This document shows positions 12,101 to 39,069 of a stretch of 64,000 bases of DNA, in pieces. Under the pieces are notes generated by a model, which saw only the letters and a list, made by a program, of their open reading frames with translations, searched no databases and was not told where the DNA came from. This DNA comes from an uncultured Chloroflexales bacterium (lineage in GTDB: Bacteria; Chloroflexota; Chloroflexia; Chloroflexales; Chloroflexaceae): NCBI GenBank assembly GCA_937918935.1, contig CAKZSI010000002.1, positions 1-64,000 of the forward strand, given 5' to 3'. The translations under genes and the position numbers were made by a program. Each line of letters opens with the position of its first letter. Position 1 is the first letter of the stretch.

Positions 12101-13654
12101 TTACAGCGGAATGTTCCCATGTTTGCGCGCGGGCATGCTCTGGCGCTTGGTGCGGGCGATACGGAGAGCGCGGATCAGGGCCGGGCGCGTCTCCCTGGGT
12201 TCGATCACGGCGTCGATGTACCCGCGCTCGGCGGCGACGTAGGGATTGGCGAAGCGGTTCTGGTAATCCGCAACCAGTTCAGCCAGGCGCCGCTGCGGGT
12301 CGGCGGCCTCGGCAAGCTCTTTGCGGAAGATGATGCGAACCGCGGCGTCCACGCCCATCACGGCAATCTCGGCGGTAGGCCAGGCGAAGTTGAAATCGGC
12401 GCGGATATGTTTGGAGGCCATCACGTCGTAGGCCCCGCCGTAGGCCTTGCGGGTGATCACGGTGAGCTTGGGCACTGTGGCCTCGCAGTAGGCGTAGAGC
12501 AACTTGGCGCCGTGGCGAATGATCCCGCCATACTCCTGCTGAGTGCCCGGCAGGAAGCCCGGCACGTCCACGAAGGTCACCAGGGGGATGTTGAAGGCAT
12601 CGCAGAAGCGCACGAAGCGCGCCCCCTTGACTGAGCTGTCAATGTCCAGCGTGCCGGCAAGTTGCATCGGCTGGTTGGCGACCACGCCAACGGGATGGCC
12701 ATCGAGCCGGGCAAAGCCGATCACGATGTTGCGCGCCCAGAAGGGCTGCACCTCGAAGAACTCGCCGTGGTCCACCACGGCCTCAATCACCTTGACAATG
12801 TCGTAGGCCTTGCGCGGGTTGTCGGGGATCAGGGTCTGCAGATCTTCTTCGGTGCGTTCGGGATCGTCAGTGGGCGGGATGGAAGGCGGGTCGTCCATGT
12901 TGTTCGAGGGAATGAACGACAGCAGCGTGCGCAACTGGTCGAAGCACTCATCCTCACCATCGGCGGCGAAGTGGGCAACGCCGCTGCGGGTGTTATGGGT
13001 CATTGCCCCGCCCAGTTCTTCGAACCCCACCTCTTCCCCGGTGACCGTCTTGATCACATCCGGGCCGGTAATGAACATCTGGCTGGATCCCTTGACCATG
13101 AGGATAAAATCGGTCATGGCCGGGGAGTAGACAGCCCCGCCGGCGCAGGGGCCGGCGATGATCGAGAGCTGGGGGATCACGCCGCTGCTGATGACATTAC
13201 GGTAGAAGATCTCGGCATAGCCGCCCAGACTGACGACCCCTTCCTGAATGCGCGCGCCGCCCGAGTCGTTGATGCCGATGCAGGGCACGCCCATCCGCAG
13301 GGCCAGATCCATCACTTTGCAGATCTTCTCGGCAAAGACCTCACCCAGGCTGCCGCCGAAGATGGTGAAATCCTGGGAAAACACGCACACCGGGCGCCCA
13401 TCAATCGTGCCGTGACCGCTGACCACGCCGTCGCCAAGGGGTTTGCGTCGTTCCATACCAAAGGCGGACGTGCGATGGACGGCGAAGGCATCCAGTTCAA
13501 CGAACGATCCGGGGTCGAGCAGCCGGTCAATGCGCTCCCGCGCGGTCAACTTGCCACGTTCATGTTGCTTCTGGATGGCCTGGGGGTCGCCGGTGAGGGC
13601 CTGGTGGCGGCGACGGCGTAACTCTTCGATCTTTTCGGCGGTCGTCTGCGACAT
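12101..13654 (-). CDS. pccB: Acyl-CoA carboxylase carboxyltransferase subunit (propionyl-CoA carboxylase beta type)
   Basis: 517 aa, full length for biotin-dependent acyl-CoA carboxyltransferase beta subunits. Recognisable segments are [18 protein letters not shown] near the N-terminus, [10 protein letters not shown], the [12 protein letters not shown] oxyanion region, [13 protein letters not shown] and the C-terminal KHGNIPL. The enzyme moves CO2 from carboxybiotin to propionyl-CoA (and often acetyl-CoA). In Chloroflexia this feeds the 3-hydroxypropionate cycle or propionate use. No biotin carboxylase or carrier gene is next to it, so it must work with subunits encoded elsewhere. ATG 13654 has AAGGAG upstream. 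Confidence 0.93.
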
Positions 13655-30106: not shown

Positions 30107-30943
30107 AGGGCACCTCCTCAATATTCATCGGTCAGGTAACGCAGCGTGCAAATGCTTTTCCAATATTTTGCACACACTTCTCCTACGCAGCTCCGCTGCC
30201 ACTGGATGTATGCCAGGAGCAATACCTTGCACATACGCCAGGGCTCACGGCACTGCCCCTCTCCCAACCTCCCCCGCCGGGGGGAGGAGCGGCAATAGCG
30301 CTGTCTACATCGCCATAGCGATTGACCTCCCAACCTCCCCCCGCCACGGGGAGGAGCGGGGTAGCACGCGGCGGATCACGCGCCGGTGCACCGTCGGTAT
30401 GCCTCCTGATCGCTCCAACGGGGAGTGGCGCCGGAAGCCCTCTCGCAGCGGGGGAGGGTGGAGAGGAGACAACGCGCGTATGTGAACTGCATTGATGCTA
30501 GAAGCCTGTCCGGCCAACCAGGGTATCCGGTGATGCTCTAACCAGGGTATAACCAGGGTATCCGGTGATGCTCTGGAAAGGCTTTGCCCTCGTAGAGCAT
30601 CGCCTCTCGCCGGAGGGTGCGGACCCGGGTTTCCCTACCCTCCACCAACCGGCGGTTCGTAACGCATGCGTCGCCTTCGTGTATCCTCCCGGCACGGAAG
30701 GAAGGTTCCTGAGAGGGCTTTGCCCTCCGGGCCTCTCTCACGGGAGGCATCCGGACAGGCTCCAGGGATGTTCCAGGAGCGAATGGCCAGGGCATGGGCA
30801 CGTGGGAAGAGCCAGACGTAGCGCCGGCGAGCAAGCTGTCTGGCGCCAGGACTACCGGAATCAAGACTGAAGGGTGCAGGAGGGCTTTGCCCTCCTGCAC
30901 TCGCTCTTCTGGAGCATGGGGATAGGCGGGAACTCTGGTTGTG
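30107..30943. repeat. 837-bp repeat-rich gap without a gene
   Basis: It contains core pieces of element B (about 30250-30290 and 30325-30360), a 24-bp direct repeat (30516-30539 and 30551-30574, AACCAGGGTATCCGG then TGATGCTCT) with an additional partial copy between, repeat A remnants (near 30606-30640), and GAGGGCTTTGCCCTC hairpins near 30713-30732 and 30879-30899. No protein or RNA gene was found. Confidence 0.75.
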
Positions 30944-34425: not shown

Positions 34426-34644
34426 TCAAATAAATCCGCGCCCGCCGGTCTTGGAGAGGCGCGGGTCAAGAGTGCCCGCGAAGGCTTGCAGGCTGGTCTG
34501 GTCGAGGGCCTCGAGGGCGTCGAGTTCTTCTTCGCTGAGATCGTAGCCCACACAGGCCGCCCGGGCATTGTCAATCAGTTGTTGGCGGAACTCGGCATCG
34601 GTCACGGCGCGACCTATTACCTGCTGAACGGCTTCGAGCGACAT
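34426..34644 (-). CDS. NHLP-clan (Os1348 / Franean1_4349-type) RiPP precursor-like peptide
   Basis: 72 aa. The N-terminal part VQQVIGRAVTDAEFRQQL and the later GYDLSEEELDALEALD block are the hallmark of the nitrile-hydratase-like-leader (NHLP) clan peptides that NCBI names Os1348 or Franean1_4349 family. The C-terminal part SLQAFAGTLDPRLSKTGGRGFI would be the core. The only Cys is Cys31 in the leader-like half, so no Cys-based thioether or thiazole is expected. It starts 18 nt after the stop of the giant cyclase gene on the same strand, with AAAGGGG as ribosome-binding site, so the two form an operon. No RiPP-modifying enzyme (YcaO, radical SAM, lanthipeptide synthetase) is visible in the window. 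It could alternatively be a non-RiPP small regulator of the same fold. Confidence 0.8.
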   Translation of the reverse strand: MSLEAVQQVIGRAVTDAEFRQQLIDNARAACVGYDLSEEELDALEALDQTSLQAFAGTLDPRLSKTGGRGFI

Positions 34645-34662
34645 GCCTGATAACCCCTTTCG

Positions 34663-37600
34663 TCATTGAGCCGCAAGGCGGCGAAGCTCACCGGTGGCCC
34701 CGATCTTTCTAAACGTCTCCCCGGCGCGCTTTCGATACTCTGCCGCGGAGGAATCGCCCGCAGCGGCGAGGGCCTCACCGTAGCGCGCTTCGACACAGGC
34801 CCGTTCGAAGGCGCTGTCGATCGCCTGGAAGGTCTCCAGGGCGGCCAGAAAATGCCCGGCAAAGGGTTCTCCCCGCACGGCGGCGATCTGGCCCTGCAGG
34901 CGCCGGGCGATGCCGTAGTCGAGCCGGCTGCCAAGGTGCGTGGCCAGGTCTGCCGCCGCGCGGGCATGCCGCTGCGCCTCGTCGAGCAGCAGGGTCCGGC
35001 TGCCACCAAACGCCAGTTCGATTCCGGCGGTGAGGGCAACCTCGGCCAGCACGTTCAGCGCCTCCACTTCGTGCTGCGGGGCATGCACCCGGCGGGCGAT
35101 GGCCAGGGCTTCTTCGGCCAGGGCGCGCGCGGCGGCAGGTTCGCCCTGGGCCAGGGTGACCCGAGCGAGCAATGTCAGGGTATTCCCTTCCTGAAAGGGG
35201 TTGCCCTGCTCACGGTAGATTGCCAGGGCCTGGCGGTAACTCGCGGCGGCGGCGGCGTAGTCGCCCTGTTGATACACGGTCATCCCCAGGGTGTCGGCGG
35301 CCTGGGCCACGCCAAGCTGGTCGCCCATCTCCTGGCACAGCGCCAGCGCGTCCCGGCAGGCGCCCAGCGCCTCTTCGTAGCGGCTGAGGCAAAAGTAAGC
35401 GTAGGCGGCGTTGAGCAGCACGCTGCTGAGGGTGTACTTCGACTGCGCCTTGCTGGCCAGGCTCTCGGCCTCGCTGTAGTGTTGCACCGCGCGAGCATAA
35501 TCACTCTGCAACTGGGCCAGGTAGCCCAGGTTGTTGTGCATGCGAGCGCAGCCGTAGAGGTCGTCAATGGCCTCGTGGGCCGCCAGGGCGCTGGTGAAGT
35601 GGTAGCGGGCCCGTTCGTAGTCGCCGCGCAAGGCAAACAGCGAGCCCATGAGGGTTTGCAGATCGGCCTCGATGCGCTCGTCTTCGGCGCTGTGGCGGTC
35701 GTTGCGGATGAGGGTCAGGCCGGTGCGGCAGATATCGAGGGCGGCGTCGAAATCACCCAGACGGCGCAGCACCTGGCCCGTATCGGCACAGACGGCTGCC
35801 AGCAGGAGTGGGGGCACGGCATTGATGCGCGCCCGGCAGAGCGCCTCGGCCTCGCGCAAGCGGTCGAGGGCCTCGACGTAGCGCCCCTGCTTCTCCAGCG
35901 CCTCGCCCCAGGAGCGCAGCACTTCAGCAGCCACGGCAGGTGGCAGGTCAACTGCGGAAGCCTGATCCGGCGCGGTGCGGCCCAGCAGGAGGGCATACTC
36001 GCGCTGTGCCTCGTCGTAGCGTCCCAGGGTACAGAGCACGTCCCCCAGGGCCTCGCGGGCCTCCCAGATCCGGGGGTCGCCAGGGGAGTCAGCGAGGATA
36101 TCGAGCGCCCAGCGGTAGTGCTGGGTCGCCTGGTCGTTGGCATAGTTGTCGCGGGCGATGTGCCCGGCAAGCAACAGGTAGGGCACGGCACGCTCGGGCG
36201 CATCGCTAAGCCGGAAGTGATGGGCCAGCAAGAAGATCGGGGCGCCACTGGCCTGGATACCGCGGCTCAGCAATGAGCCGTTGCGACCGATGGGGACGAG
36301 GTGGCGGCCCTGGTCGTCGCGGTAATGGGCGCGCACCCGCGCGAGCTCGGCGGCGTAGCGCGTCTCCAGGTGCTCGCCGATCCGACGGTGCAACTCGCGC
36401 CGCCGGGCGTAGAGCAGGCTCTGGTAAGCCACCTCGTGCAGCAGGGCGTGACGGAAGAGGTGGATGCGTTCGGGTTGCTCGCGCTCGGTCGCGGTGATCT
36501 CGGCATGGTCGAGCAGCACCAACTGGCGGATCAGCGCCTCGTGCTCGAGGGGATGGACCGACTCGACGACGCTGGCCGGGAAGCGTTGGCCAATCACAGC
36601 AGCCACACGGAGAATGGCCCGCGAAGTCTCGTCGAGGCGGTCAATGCGCGAGAGCAGCAGCCCACTCAGGCTGTCGGGGAGGGCATCGGCGGCATCGGGC
36701 CGTTCGCTGACCGCCCGCAGCAACTCTTCCAGGAAGAGCGGATTGCCCGCGGCGCGGTTCACCAGACGGTCGCGCAGAGGGGGAGCGAGGGGCTGCGGAT
36801 GGGCCAGGGCGTCGAGCAGGGCCGTGCTCGCCTCGGCGGTCAAGGGGCGGAGATCAAGCATCGCGGCAGCATCGGCGGCCCGGTCATCACCCCACGCCAG
36901 CGGGCCACGGTGGAGGCCCAGCAGCAGGATCGGCGCATCGTTCAGGTGGGTCGCCACGTATTGCCAGAGAGCGAGCGAGACCTGGTCGGCCCAATGCAGA
37001 TTGTCGAAAATCACCACCACCGGGGCCCCCGGCAGGGCATCCGGGCGGGACTGGCGAGCCGTGGCACGGAGAAGCGCCAGGATGATCGCGAAGCGCCGTG
37101 TCTGCCGCTGCTGGGGGTCGAGACTGCGAACGATGGAACCTTCCTCAACCTGGACGCGGGCGAGGTCGGCTACGAGCGACAGCCAGTCGCCGGAGGCGAT
37201 ACCGGCGGCGTCCAGCGCATCGGCGAGCTTCCGGGCGCGCGCGGCGGGATCATCGCTGGCGGTAATGGCGCAAACGGCTCGCAGAAATTCGCCCCAGGGA
37301 GCGTAGGGCGTGACACTGTTATAGGCCAGACAGCGCACGGTGAAAACGCGGGCGCCGGCGGCGCGGGCCTCGGCGGTCAGGGCGGCGACCAGGCGTGACT
37401 TGCCGATCCCGGCCTCGCCGCACACTCGCACCACCTGGCCGCCCCTGGCGGCGGCGATCCAGCGTTCGCGCAGCCAGGCAAGCTCGTGGTCACGGCCGAT
37501 CAGCGGCGCGTCGGGGTACACCGGCTCGAGGGGGTGCTCACGCTCGCCGAGCACCCGTAGAACGTCCAACGGTTCGCGCTTACCCTTCGCGGCTATCTGC

Positions 37601-39069
37601 CGCGGATTGGCGCAGACCAGGGCGCGGGCGATCAACGCCGCAGTGGTGATCGAACAACACACCTCTCCCCAGGCGGCGCCGGCCATGACGCGAGCGGCTA
37701 CGTTGACTGCGTCGCCCATAACGGTGTACTCTTTGCGTTCGGCGCTGCCAACGTTGCCGGCGAAGACGTTGCCGGTGTTCAGCCCGGCACGGAAGCGCAG
37801 CGACTGCTGGACGGATTGGACGGCGGTCTGCATCAGCAGGGCAGCGCGCGCGGCCCGCTCGGCATGATCCTCTAGCGCCAGCGGCGCCCCGAACACGGCC
37901 ATTAGCCGGATGCCTTCCTCGGCCAGATCGAGCTTGTTGACGAAGCCGCCAAAGCGCTCGACCGCCACCTGCAGCGGGCCGACGACGGCATTGACCGCCG
38001 CGGCGGCCTCCGCCGCAGCCCGGCCCTCGATCAGGCGCTCCAGCCCCGACAACTGGGCAAAGAGCACCGTAACCGGGCGCAGGTCGGCCTCAACGCGGGG
38101 GCGTCGGGGATCAGCGATGATCCGGGTCACCAGTTCAACCGGCAAGTAGGCGCCGAGTCGCTCGACCTGGGCCGCCAGATGGGCGACCATTTCCAGTGAC
38201 GGAGACGCCGCCGCGTCGAGTGGCGGCGCGGCAGGCAGCGCGACGGCCTGCGGCGCAACCCGCAGCGCCCGGACGCGCGCGAAGCCCGCGTCTAGCGGCT
38301 CGCCCTCGGCTACATCGGCCAGAGCGGCCCAGGCGCGCGGACCGACCACCACCTCGCCCGGACCGGCGCAGGCTTCGGCGCGGGCCACGGCGCTGACCGT
38401 CGCGCCCATCGCGCTGTAGCGACGTGAGCGTGACTGCCCGGCGCCCACCAGGGCGATCGCGCCCGCCTCGACGCCAATGTGCATCGTGAGCGGAAAGCGG
38501 CCCACCCCGGCCACCTCTCGTTCGAAGCCCGCCAGCTCGTGCAACAGGTCCAGCGCGGCGGAGGCGGCGATGGTGGTGGCATGCGGACCTTCGAAGAGCG
38601 CGAGCAGCGCGTCGCCGCCGAAGCCGAGCATATCCCCGCCCGCTCCGGCAATAACGCGCATCATGGTGGCAAAATAGCCGTTGAGCGTCTCGGTGACGAT
38701 TTCGGCGCCCTCATGACCCAGGGCGCCCAGGCGTTCGGCCAGGGCGGTGGAGCCGCTCACATCGGCGAAGAGCAACGCGCCTTCGACCCACTCGATCCAG
38801 GGCGGCGCACTGTCGGTGGCGAGTTCGCGGGCCAGCAAGCGCCGGGGGAGGTAGGTGGCAATGGCGTTGCGCGCCGCCAGCAGATGGGCGCAAATGGCCT
38901 GCCGGTGACGCTGGCGCGGGGTTGGGCCGAGTATGACCGCAGCGGGGCCGGGTCCCAGGTGGCGCGTCAGCAGCGCGACCAGAGGGTCCGGTTCGGCTGC
39001 TGGTAGAGGATGGTCAGGCGACTGGCGCATCAGGTTCCACGGTGTATCGGGGTCCACAGGTACTGTCAT
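34663..39069 (-). CDS. Soluble-adenylyl-cyclase-like protein: two cyclase domains, AAA/STAND ATPase, TPR array
   Basis: 1468 aa. Class III cyclase domain 1 (about 95-260) keeps both metal aspartates (Asp103 in LLFADVSGST; Asp153 in GGDALLALF). Domain 2 (about 330-505) has LFAQLSGLER, with Gln339 in place of the first Asp, and NKLDLAEEGIRLMAVFGAP, KEYTVMGDAVNVAAR. Then a STAND/AAA ATPase with Walker A GEAGIGKSRL (551-560), Walker B-like VVVIFDNLHWAD, and about 12 TPR units (about 960-1440). This is the domain order of mammalian ADCY10 and of many Chloroflexota signalling proteins. It would be cytoplasmic and could make cAMP in response to a ligand or to nucleotide binding. Start ATG 39069 is preceded by a 16-bp tandem duplication with a start-stop ATGTGA. 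It shares an operon with the NHLP peptide. Confidence 0.9.
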   Translation of the reverse strand: MTVPVDPDTPWNLMRQSPDHPLPAAEPDPLVALLTRHLGPGPAAVILGPTPRQRHRQAICAHLLAARNAIATYLPRRLLARELATDSAPPWIEWVEGALLFADVSGSTALAERLGALGHEGAEIVTETLNGYFATMMRVIAGAGGDMLGFGGDALLALFEGPHATTIAASAALDLLHELAGFEREVAGVGRFPLTMHIGVEAGAIALVGAGQSRSRRYSAMGATVSAVARAEACAGPGEVVVGPRAWAALADVAEGEPLDAGFARVRALRVAPQAVALPAAPPLDAAASPSLEMVAHLAAQVERLGAYLPVELVTRIIADPRRPRVEADLRPVTVLFAQLSGLERLIEGRAAAEAAAAVNAVVGPLQVAVERFGGFVNKLDLAEEGIRLMAVFGAPLALEDHAERAARAALLMQTAVQSVQQSLRFRAGLNTGNVFAGNVGSAERKEYTVMGDAVNVAARVMAGAAWGEVCCSITTAALIARALVCANPRQIAAKGKREPLDVLRVLGEREHPLEPVYPDAPLIGRDHELAWLRERWIAAARGGQVVRVCGEAGIGKSRLVAALTAEARAAGARVFTVRCLAYNSVTPYAPWGEFLRAVCAITASDDPAARARKLADALDAAGIASGDWLSLVADLARVQVEEGSIVRSLDPQQRQTRRFAIILALLRATARQSRPDALPGAPVVVIFDNLHWADQVSLALWQYVATHLNDAPILLLGLHRGPLAWGDDRAADAAAMLDLRPLTAEASTALLDALAHPQPLAPPLRDRLVNRAAGNPLFLEELLRAVSERPDAADALPDSLSGLLLSRIDRLDETSRAILRVAAVIGQRFPASVVESVHPLEHEALIRQLVLLDHAEITATEREQPERIHLFRHALLHEVAYQSLLYARRRELHRRIGEHLETRYAAELARVRAHYRDDQGRHLVPIGRNGSLLSRGIQASGAPIFLLAHHFRLSDAPERAVPYLLLAGHIARDNYANDQATQHYRWALDILADSPGDPRIWEAREALGDVLCTLGRYDEAQREYALLLGRTAPDQASAVDLPPAVAAEVLRSWGEALEKQGRYVEALDRLREAEALCRARINAVPPLLLAAVCADTGQVLRRLGDFDAALDICRTGLTLIRNDRHSAEDERIEADLQTLMGSLFALRGDYERARYHFTSALAAHEAIDDLYGCARMHNNLGYLAQLQSDYARAVQHYSEAESLASKAQSKYTLSSVLLNAAYAYFCLSRYEEALGACRDALALCQEMGDQLGVAQAADTLGMTVYQQGDYAAAAASYRQALAIYREQGNPFQEGNTLTLLARVTLAQGEPAAARALAEEALAIARRVHAPQHEVEALNVLAEVALTAGIELAFGGSRTLLLDEAQRHARAAADLATHLGSRLDYGIARRLQGQIAAVRGEPFAGHFLAALETFQAIDSAFERACVEARYGEALAAAGDSSAAEYRKRAGETFRKIGATGELRRLAAQ

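Follow-up and report, generated by a model that had tools for sequence, protein, structure and literature searches.

The window, a stretch of 64,000 nucleotides from an uncultured Chloroflexales bacterium, carries on its minus strand a pair of adjacent genes: one encodes a protein of 1468 amino acids (34663..39069) with the architecture C1-C2 cyclase/STAND (AAA_16)/TPR, similar to soluble adenylyl cyclase, and the other a protein of 72 amino acids (34426..34644), a member of the Os1348 family within the NHLP clan. The 18-nt spacer between them (34645..34662, minus strand) contains the Shine-Dalgarno-like stretch AAAGGGG, and no terminator-like site was found on the minus strand between the two genes. 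The original prediction, which had the small gene starting 18 nt past the stop of the large one, on the same strand and behind a ribosome-binding site, was exact in coordinates, lengths, strand and gap, and the AAAGGGG stretch is ribosome-binding-like. Regarding the surroundings, the flanking genes on both sides, one of the isocitrate/isopropylmalate dehydrogenase family and one encoding a DUF3160 protein, lie on the opposite strand, so that the pair constitutes a unit of its own. Elsewhere in the window, two diverged direct repeats of 48 nt, 73% identical and 167 nt apart, occur at 30713-30927, in a stretch that is probably intergenic.

The large protein contains two class III cyclase domains (PF00211), an AAA_16 domain (5.6e-22) and TPR repeats (TPR_12, 4.4e-32). 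The first cyclase domain, C1, covers residues about 71-249 (38323..38859) and the second, C2, residues about 324-504 (37557..38100); they are followed by the AAA_16/STAND NTPase region (residues about 506-905, 36355..37554) and by a TPR alpha-solenoid (residues about 906-1468, 34666..36354), all on the minus strand. An AAA_16-type NTPase followed by a repeat arm is the layout of STAND NTPases, and the alpha-solenoid model of the arm is confident. The nearest solved relative is the mammalian soluble adenylyl cyclase (sAC; ADCY10, 4CM2 and others), to which both cyclase domains align (E 1.6e-28), with the same split of the catalytic residues between C1 and C2 and the same succession of NTPase and repeats.

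Among 25 sequences, Asp103 and Asp153 of C1, which we take to be the metal ligands, are kept in 25/25, as are Thr449, Asn456 and Arg460 of C2, and Lys379 is found in 24/25; presumably these last four are the catalytic residues contributed by C2, in which the metal Asp is lost and replaced by Gln339. The retention of the Asp pair in C1 and of Lys/Thr/Asn/Arg in C2 predicts a single complete, heterodimeric sAC/tmAC-type site, and the Lys and Thr of C2 suggest ATP as the substrate of this predicted site. With sAC as the nearest solved relative and the split active site intact, the reading of the large protein as a cyclase is strengthened. Regulation by bicarbonate as in sAC was considered and discarded: Lys95 of sAC is the bicarbonate-binding residue, and the equivalent position 149 is occupied here by G, T, N, S, A, V or H, with Lys in 0/25 sequences. 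Apart from this position, the window protein differs from ADCY10 in being encoded together with an NHLP-clan partner. As for the TOMM kinase/cyclase fusion (TIGR03903), a family also named for a RiPP precursor system, the C2-AAA part of the window protein aligns to it (E 3e-59), but the match is partial and its 200.9 bits are far below the cut-off of 705.75; unlike in that family, the kinase domain was not found here, and YcaO is absent from the genome.

The small protein matches NF038399, the profile of the Os1348 family NHLP clan proteins, with 87.7 bits (E 4.1e-25), above the curated cut-off of 40 bits, and PF14407 with 78.4 bits (E 5.1e-22), so that the clan membership originally recognised in its leader is borne out; no other Os1348-family protein was found in the source genome. 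Its model is all-helical and moderately confident (pLDDT 72), with a helical domain predicted at residues 3-64 and a disordered tail. The top PDB fold match is the Os1348 crystal structure 6LK7 (TM 0.67-0.71, Foldseek E 0.045), which is also among the two best PDB profile matches (E 1.6e-6); the small protein hence shares with Os1348/PosA of Pseudomonas sp. Os17 the profile family, the fold, the helical nature and a size of 70-85 amino acids.

Orthologues of the small protein have a fixed length of 72-74 amino acids, and those in a set of 30 count 72 residues, except for one of 73. In this set, the tail (residues 59-72) has invariant D60, R62, K65, G68 and G70, and it is conserved as the pattern S/T-K-x-G-G-x-G-F, the last residues being G-x-G-F/L. 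Mean identity is 0.59 over the last 12 residues versus 0.68-0.72 elsewhere, with pS near 0.7 throughout, which makes the tail somewhat more variable yet clearly constrained. The original prediction of a variable Ser/Lys/Gly core did not survive this comparison; it was right that the core has no Cys, but had overlooked Cys31, in the leader-like part, which is invariant in 30/30 orthologues. Since dN/dS is about 0.03-0.1 among close relatives, the small-protein gene is, by its substitution pattern, a real gene under purifying selection. When the window is compared with Roseiflexus, identity amounts to about 70-75% for the peptide and 44-53% for the cyclase, the peptide being the better conserved of the two.

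The pairing was followed in 158 genomes of the class Chloroflexia, in which the NF038399 matches were compared with the cyclase matches. The orthologue group of the cyclase consists of 42 matches, six of which run off the contig edge before the C-terminus, leaving 36 with a visible 3' end; a same-strand peptide gene stands behind 35/36 of these orthologues and behind 0/91 paralogous cyclase/AAA/TPR genes (Fisher p 1.5e-30, in a test that ignores shared ancestry). The sole exception is the orthologue of genome G059, which lacks a peptide within 2.3 kb. When 84,980 GTDB species genomes were scanned, the pair turned up in 34/36 loci encoding a clear relative, among them those of Oscillochloris, Chloroploca, Viridilinea, Chloroflexus, Roseiflexus and three MAGs labelled Anaerolineae/Anaerolineales (L077, L079, L087); its range covers Chloroflexaceae, Roseiflexaceae, another Chloroflexia lineage and Anaerolineae. 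The spacing between the two genes is 1-50 nt in 30 loci, often as TAAC-ATG in Chloroflexus, with wider spacings elsewhere, up to about 500 nt in Chloroploca Khr17. No third gene is common to all the compared pair loci, whose surroundings otherwise differ. The neighbourhood search across homologues, named beforehand as the test of a functional link to the cyclase, thus favours that link, the pair being conserved and co-directional and no other neighbour being so. A contig binned as Candidatus Gracilibacteria (L066) also has the Chloroflexales pair, with a peptide 71% identical, most likely by a binning error.

Candidatus Chloroploca offers a case of cyclase loss. In strain Khr17, the cyclase is present and the peptide intact; in two related genomes (G014 and G015), exactly the cyclase segment is gone from between the same flanking genes. 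The peptide of G014 is intact with no adjacent cyclase, and together with its flanks it is the same as in C. asiatica B7-9 (L062); that of G015 is a pseudogene, interrupted by two in-frame TAGs and shortened by a deletion of 8 codons. These two cyclase-less peptide loci are at L100 7768-7959 and L101 7849-8064. The case, which concerns one lineage, fits a peptide that loses its use after cyclase loss, and the intact copy leaves room for a role of the peptide independent of the cyclase.

Docking between the two proteins was modelled with AlphaFold on a fusion of the TPR arm with the peptide through the in-frame 18-nt spacer, its TGA being read as Trp, a device by which no read-through is claimed. 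The TPR solenoid was confident in this model and no docking signal appeared; the peptide tail had a pLDDT of 24-47, no better than in the peptide alone, and a tail so poorly placed leaves docking on the TPR arm unsupported.

Proteins of the NHLP clan are by default annotated as RiPP precursors, and genome-mining tools do likewise; to date, the nitrile-hydratase-like leader fold has mainly been known as the half of such precursors that docks the enzyme. Read in this way, residues 1-58 would be the leader and the C-terminal S/T-K-x-G-G-x-G-F tail the core, with the modifying enzyme encoded elsewhere. The family does contain a genuine RiPP precursor, Os1348/PosA of Pseudomonas Os17, modified at its C-terminus by HEXXH and MNIO-nitroreductase enzymes (PMC7726476, PMC12636437), so that a family lacking RiPP enzymes in any genome, named beforehand as part of what would speak against the link, is not what is seen. 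The gene of Os1348 adjoins those of a GNAT, a HEXXH enzyme and a SagB-type protein (PMC7726476, PMC12636437), whereas the neighbour here is a cyclase/STAND/TPR gene, GNAT, HEXXH and SagB are not conserved at the locus, and the tail length is fixed. Indeed, no gene for a maturase, a peptidase or an exporter is conserved at the pair loci; beyond these, HExxH, MNIO, LanC, YcaO and C39 peptidase are absent from all the tested Chloroflexaceae/Roseiflexaceae genomes that carry the pair, among them three Chloroflexus-like genomes and one Roseiflexus-like genome that each consist of a single contig. Graspetide ligase gave sub-threshold matches only. SPASM radical-SAM proteins are present in some genomes, with one in the source genome, a point in favour of a precursor, but they are absent from the complete Chloroflexus-like genomes G006 and G007. 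The Herpetosiphon-like G042, serving as positive control, matched LanC, YcaO, C39 and graspetide-like ligases, which shows that the searches for these four do work. The search for RiPP enzymes proposed at the outset therefore returned no YcaO or LanC and a single SPASM radical-SAM protein in the source genome, and the idea of a maturase encoded elsewhere is not upheld, as the pair-carrying genomes lack both the usual maturases and the C39 peptidase. Nor does the small protein show the conserved leader and variable core of RiPP precursors, its tail being conserved and not hypervariable; the fixed length, the constrained "core" and the missing enzymes weaken the precursor reading, which we regard as rather improbable. 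Of the original prediction, the clan, the coupling and the cyclase link have stood, and the variable core and the distant maturase have not.

The peptide might also be an output and not a regulator, namely a small folded effector acting elsewhere, whose production or activity is tied to the co-expressed signalling protein; Os1348, the founder of the family, forms a stable helical dimer and affects antibiotic activity (PMC7726476), and the peptide persists without the cyclase in Chloroploca asiatica and is better conserved than its neighbour. Its limitation to one cyclase orthologue group and its decay in the sister Chloroploca genome after cyclase loss speak against such an effector, which is unlikely though worth keeping in mind. 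In RRNPP systems (Rap-Phr, PlcR-PapR), the gene of a TPR receptor is followed by a small gene, as at this locus, and by analogy a protease could free the tail, with its conserved last residues, and the TPR arm could then sense it as a signal, either intracellular or for quorum sensing. However, the small protein, a conserved domain, has no visible signal sequence, conservation extends over all its 72 residues and not over the tail alone, the receptor would be a cyclase/STAND protein, C39 peptidase is absent, and the tail stayed undocked in the fused model, so that a parallel of this kind is improbable. Finally, tight packing and overlap of genes are generally common in bacteria, and the two genes could be neighbours by chance or be coupled without any functional relation; the counts of 35/36 versus 0/91, over several families and more than one class, rule out chance adjacency and leave this explanation with hardly any credit.

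The nearly constant pairing, the conservation of the peptide above that of the cyclase and the missing RiPP enzymes make a dedicated partner more likely than an antibiotic precursor, and we consider it an even call that the 72-amino acid protein, in its unprocessed form, is a partner (accessory subunit) dedicated to and in contact with the cyclase-STAND-TPR protein. The small protein would be made by translation coupled to that of the large one, and would bind it and set its activity state, either by holding the STAND module inactive or by serving as a bound element sensed by the TPR/NTPase part; as a result, cAMP synthesis would be gated by a cellular cue. Against this partner role count the low confidence of the peptide tail in the fused model, the G059 orthologue without a peptide, the intact peptide of C. 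asiatica with no adjacent cyclase, and the fact that evolution is faster in the TPR arm, where binding would be likeliest, than in the peptide. Were the small protein a regulatory subunit, a bacterial sAC relative would gain an input open to testing, in organisms with cultured representatives (Chloroflexus, Roseiflexus), and many orphan "precursors" would be explained as signalling adaptors. In any case, the pair defines a deeply conserved subgroup of the NHLP clan in which a recognised maturase is absent and a signalling protein of the cAMP type is the fixed partner. Family, fold and cyclase type were already known; no description of the conserved pairing, or of a signalling companion that is an Os1348/NHLP-clan protein, was found in the open-licence literature, which, given its incomplete coverage, is weak evidence of novelty.

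Other members of the family also lie near signalling genes. A second Os1348 paralogue, with a tail that ends near a Trp, immediately precedes a SpoIIE/PP2C-type phosphatase gene at 14 loci (L047 9888-11505; also L044, L045, L048, L050, L092, L102-L108 and L110), hosted by Chloroflexaceae, Herpetosiphon-like genomes and one other Chloroflexi MAG; no description of this pairing was found. This second paralogue indicates that the family tracks signalling enzymes in these bacteria. In another family of the class, one or two divergent Os1348 proteins, ending in S-x-[FW]-F-R-x-G-P, stand behind a cyclase/AAA/TPR gene; in two genomes (L046 3688-10468; L049 3567-10348, the latter on the peptide strand) this gene has a zinc ribbon and is preceded by a histidine kinase (RsbRD_N, GAF) and a response regulator. 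At four Deltaproteobacteria/Myxococcota loci (L088, L093, L094, L095), an Os1348-like peptide precedes a same-strand class III cyclase domain by 2.58-2.67 kb. It is possible, with a probability that we place somewhat short of even, that the nitrile-hydratase-like leader fold serves in Chloroflexota, and perhaps in Myxococcota, as a stand-alone protein-protein module, with clades for sAC-like cyclase/STAND/TPR proteins and for SpoIIE-type phosphatases; if so, this class of RiPP leaders would have a signalling role, or share its origin with such a module. At locus L043, a 66-amino acid Os1348-family protein (13096-13296, peptide-strand orientation) is encoded about 2.7 kb downstream of a cyclase/AAA/TPR gene whose product is 33% identical, with two genes between the cyclase and the peptide and a 650-amino acid gene after it.
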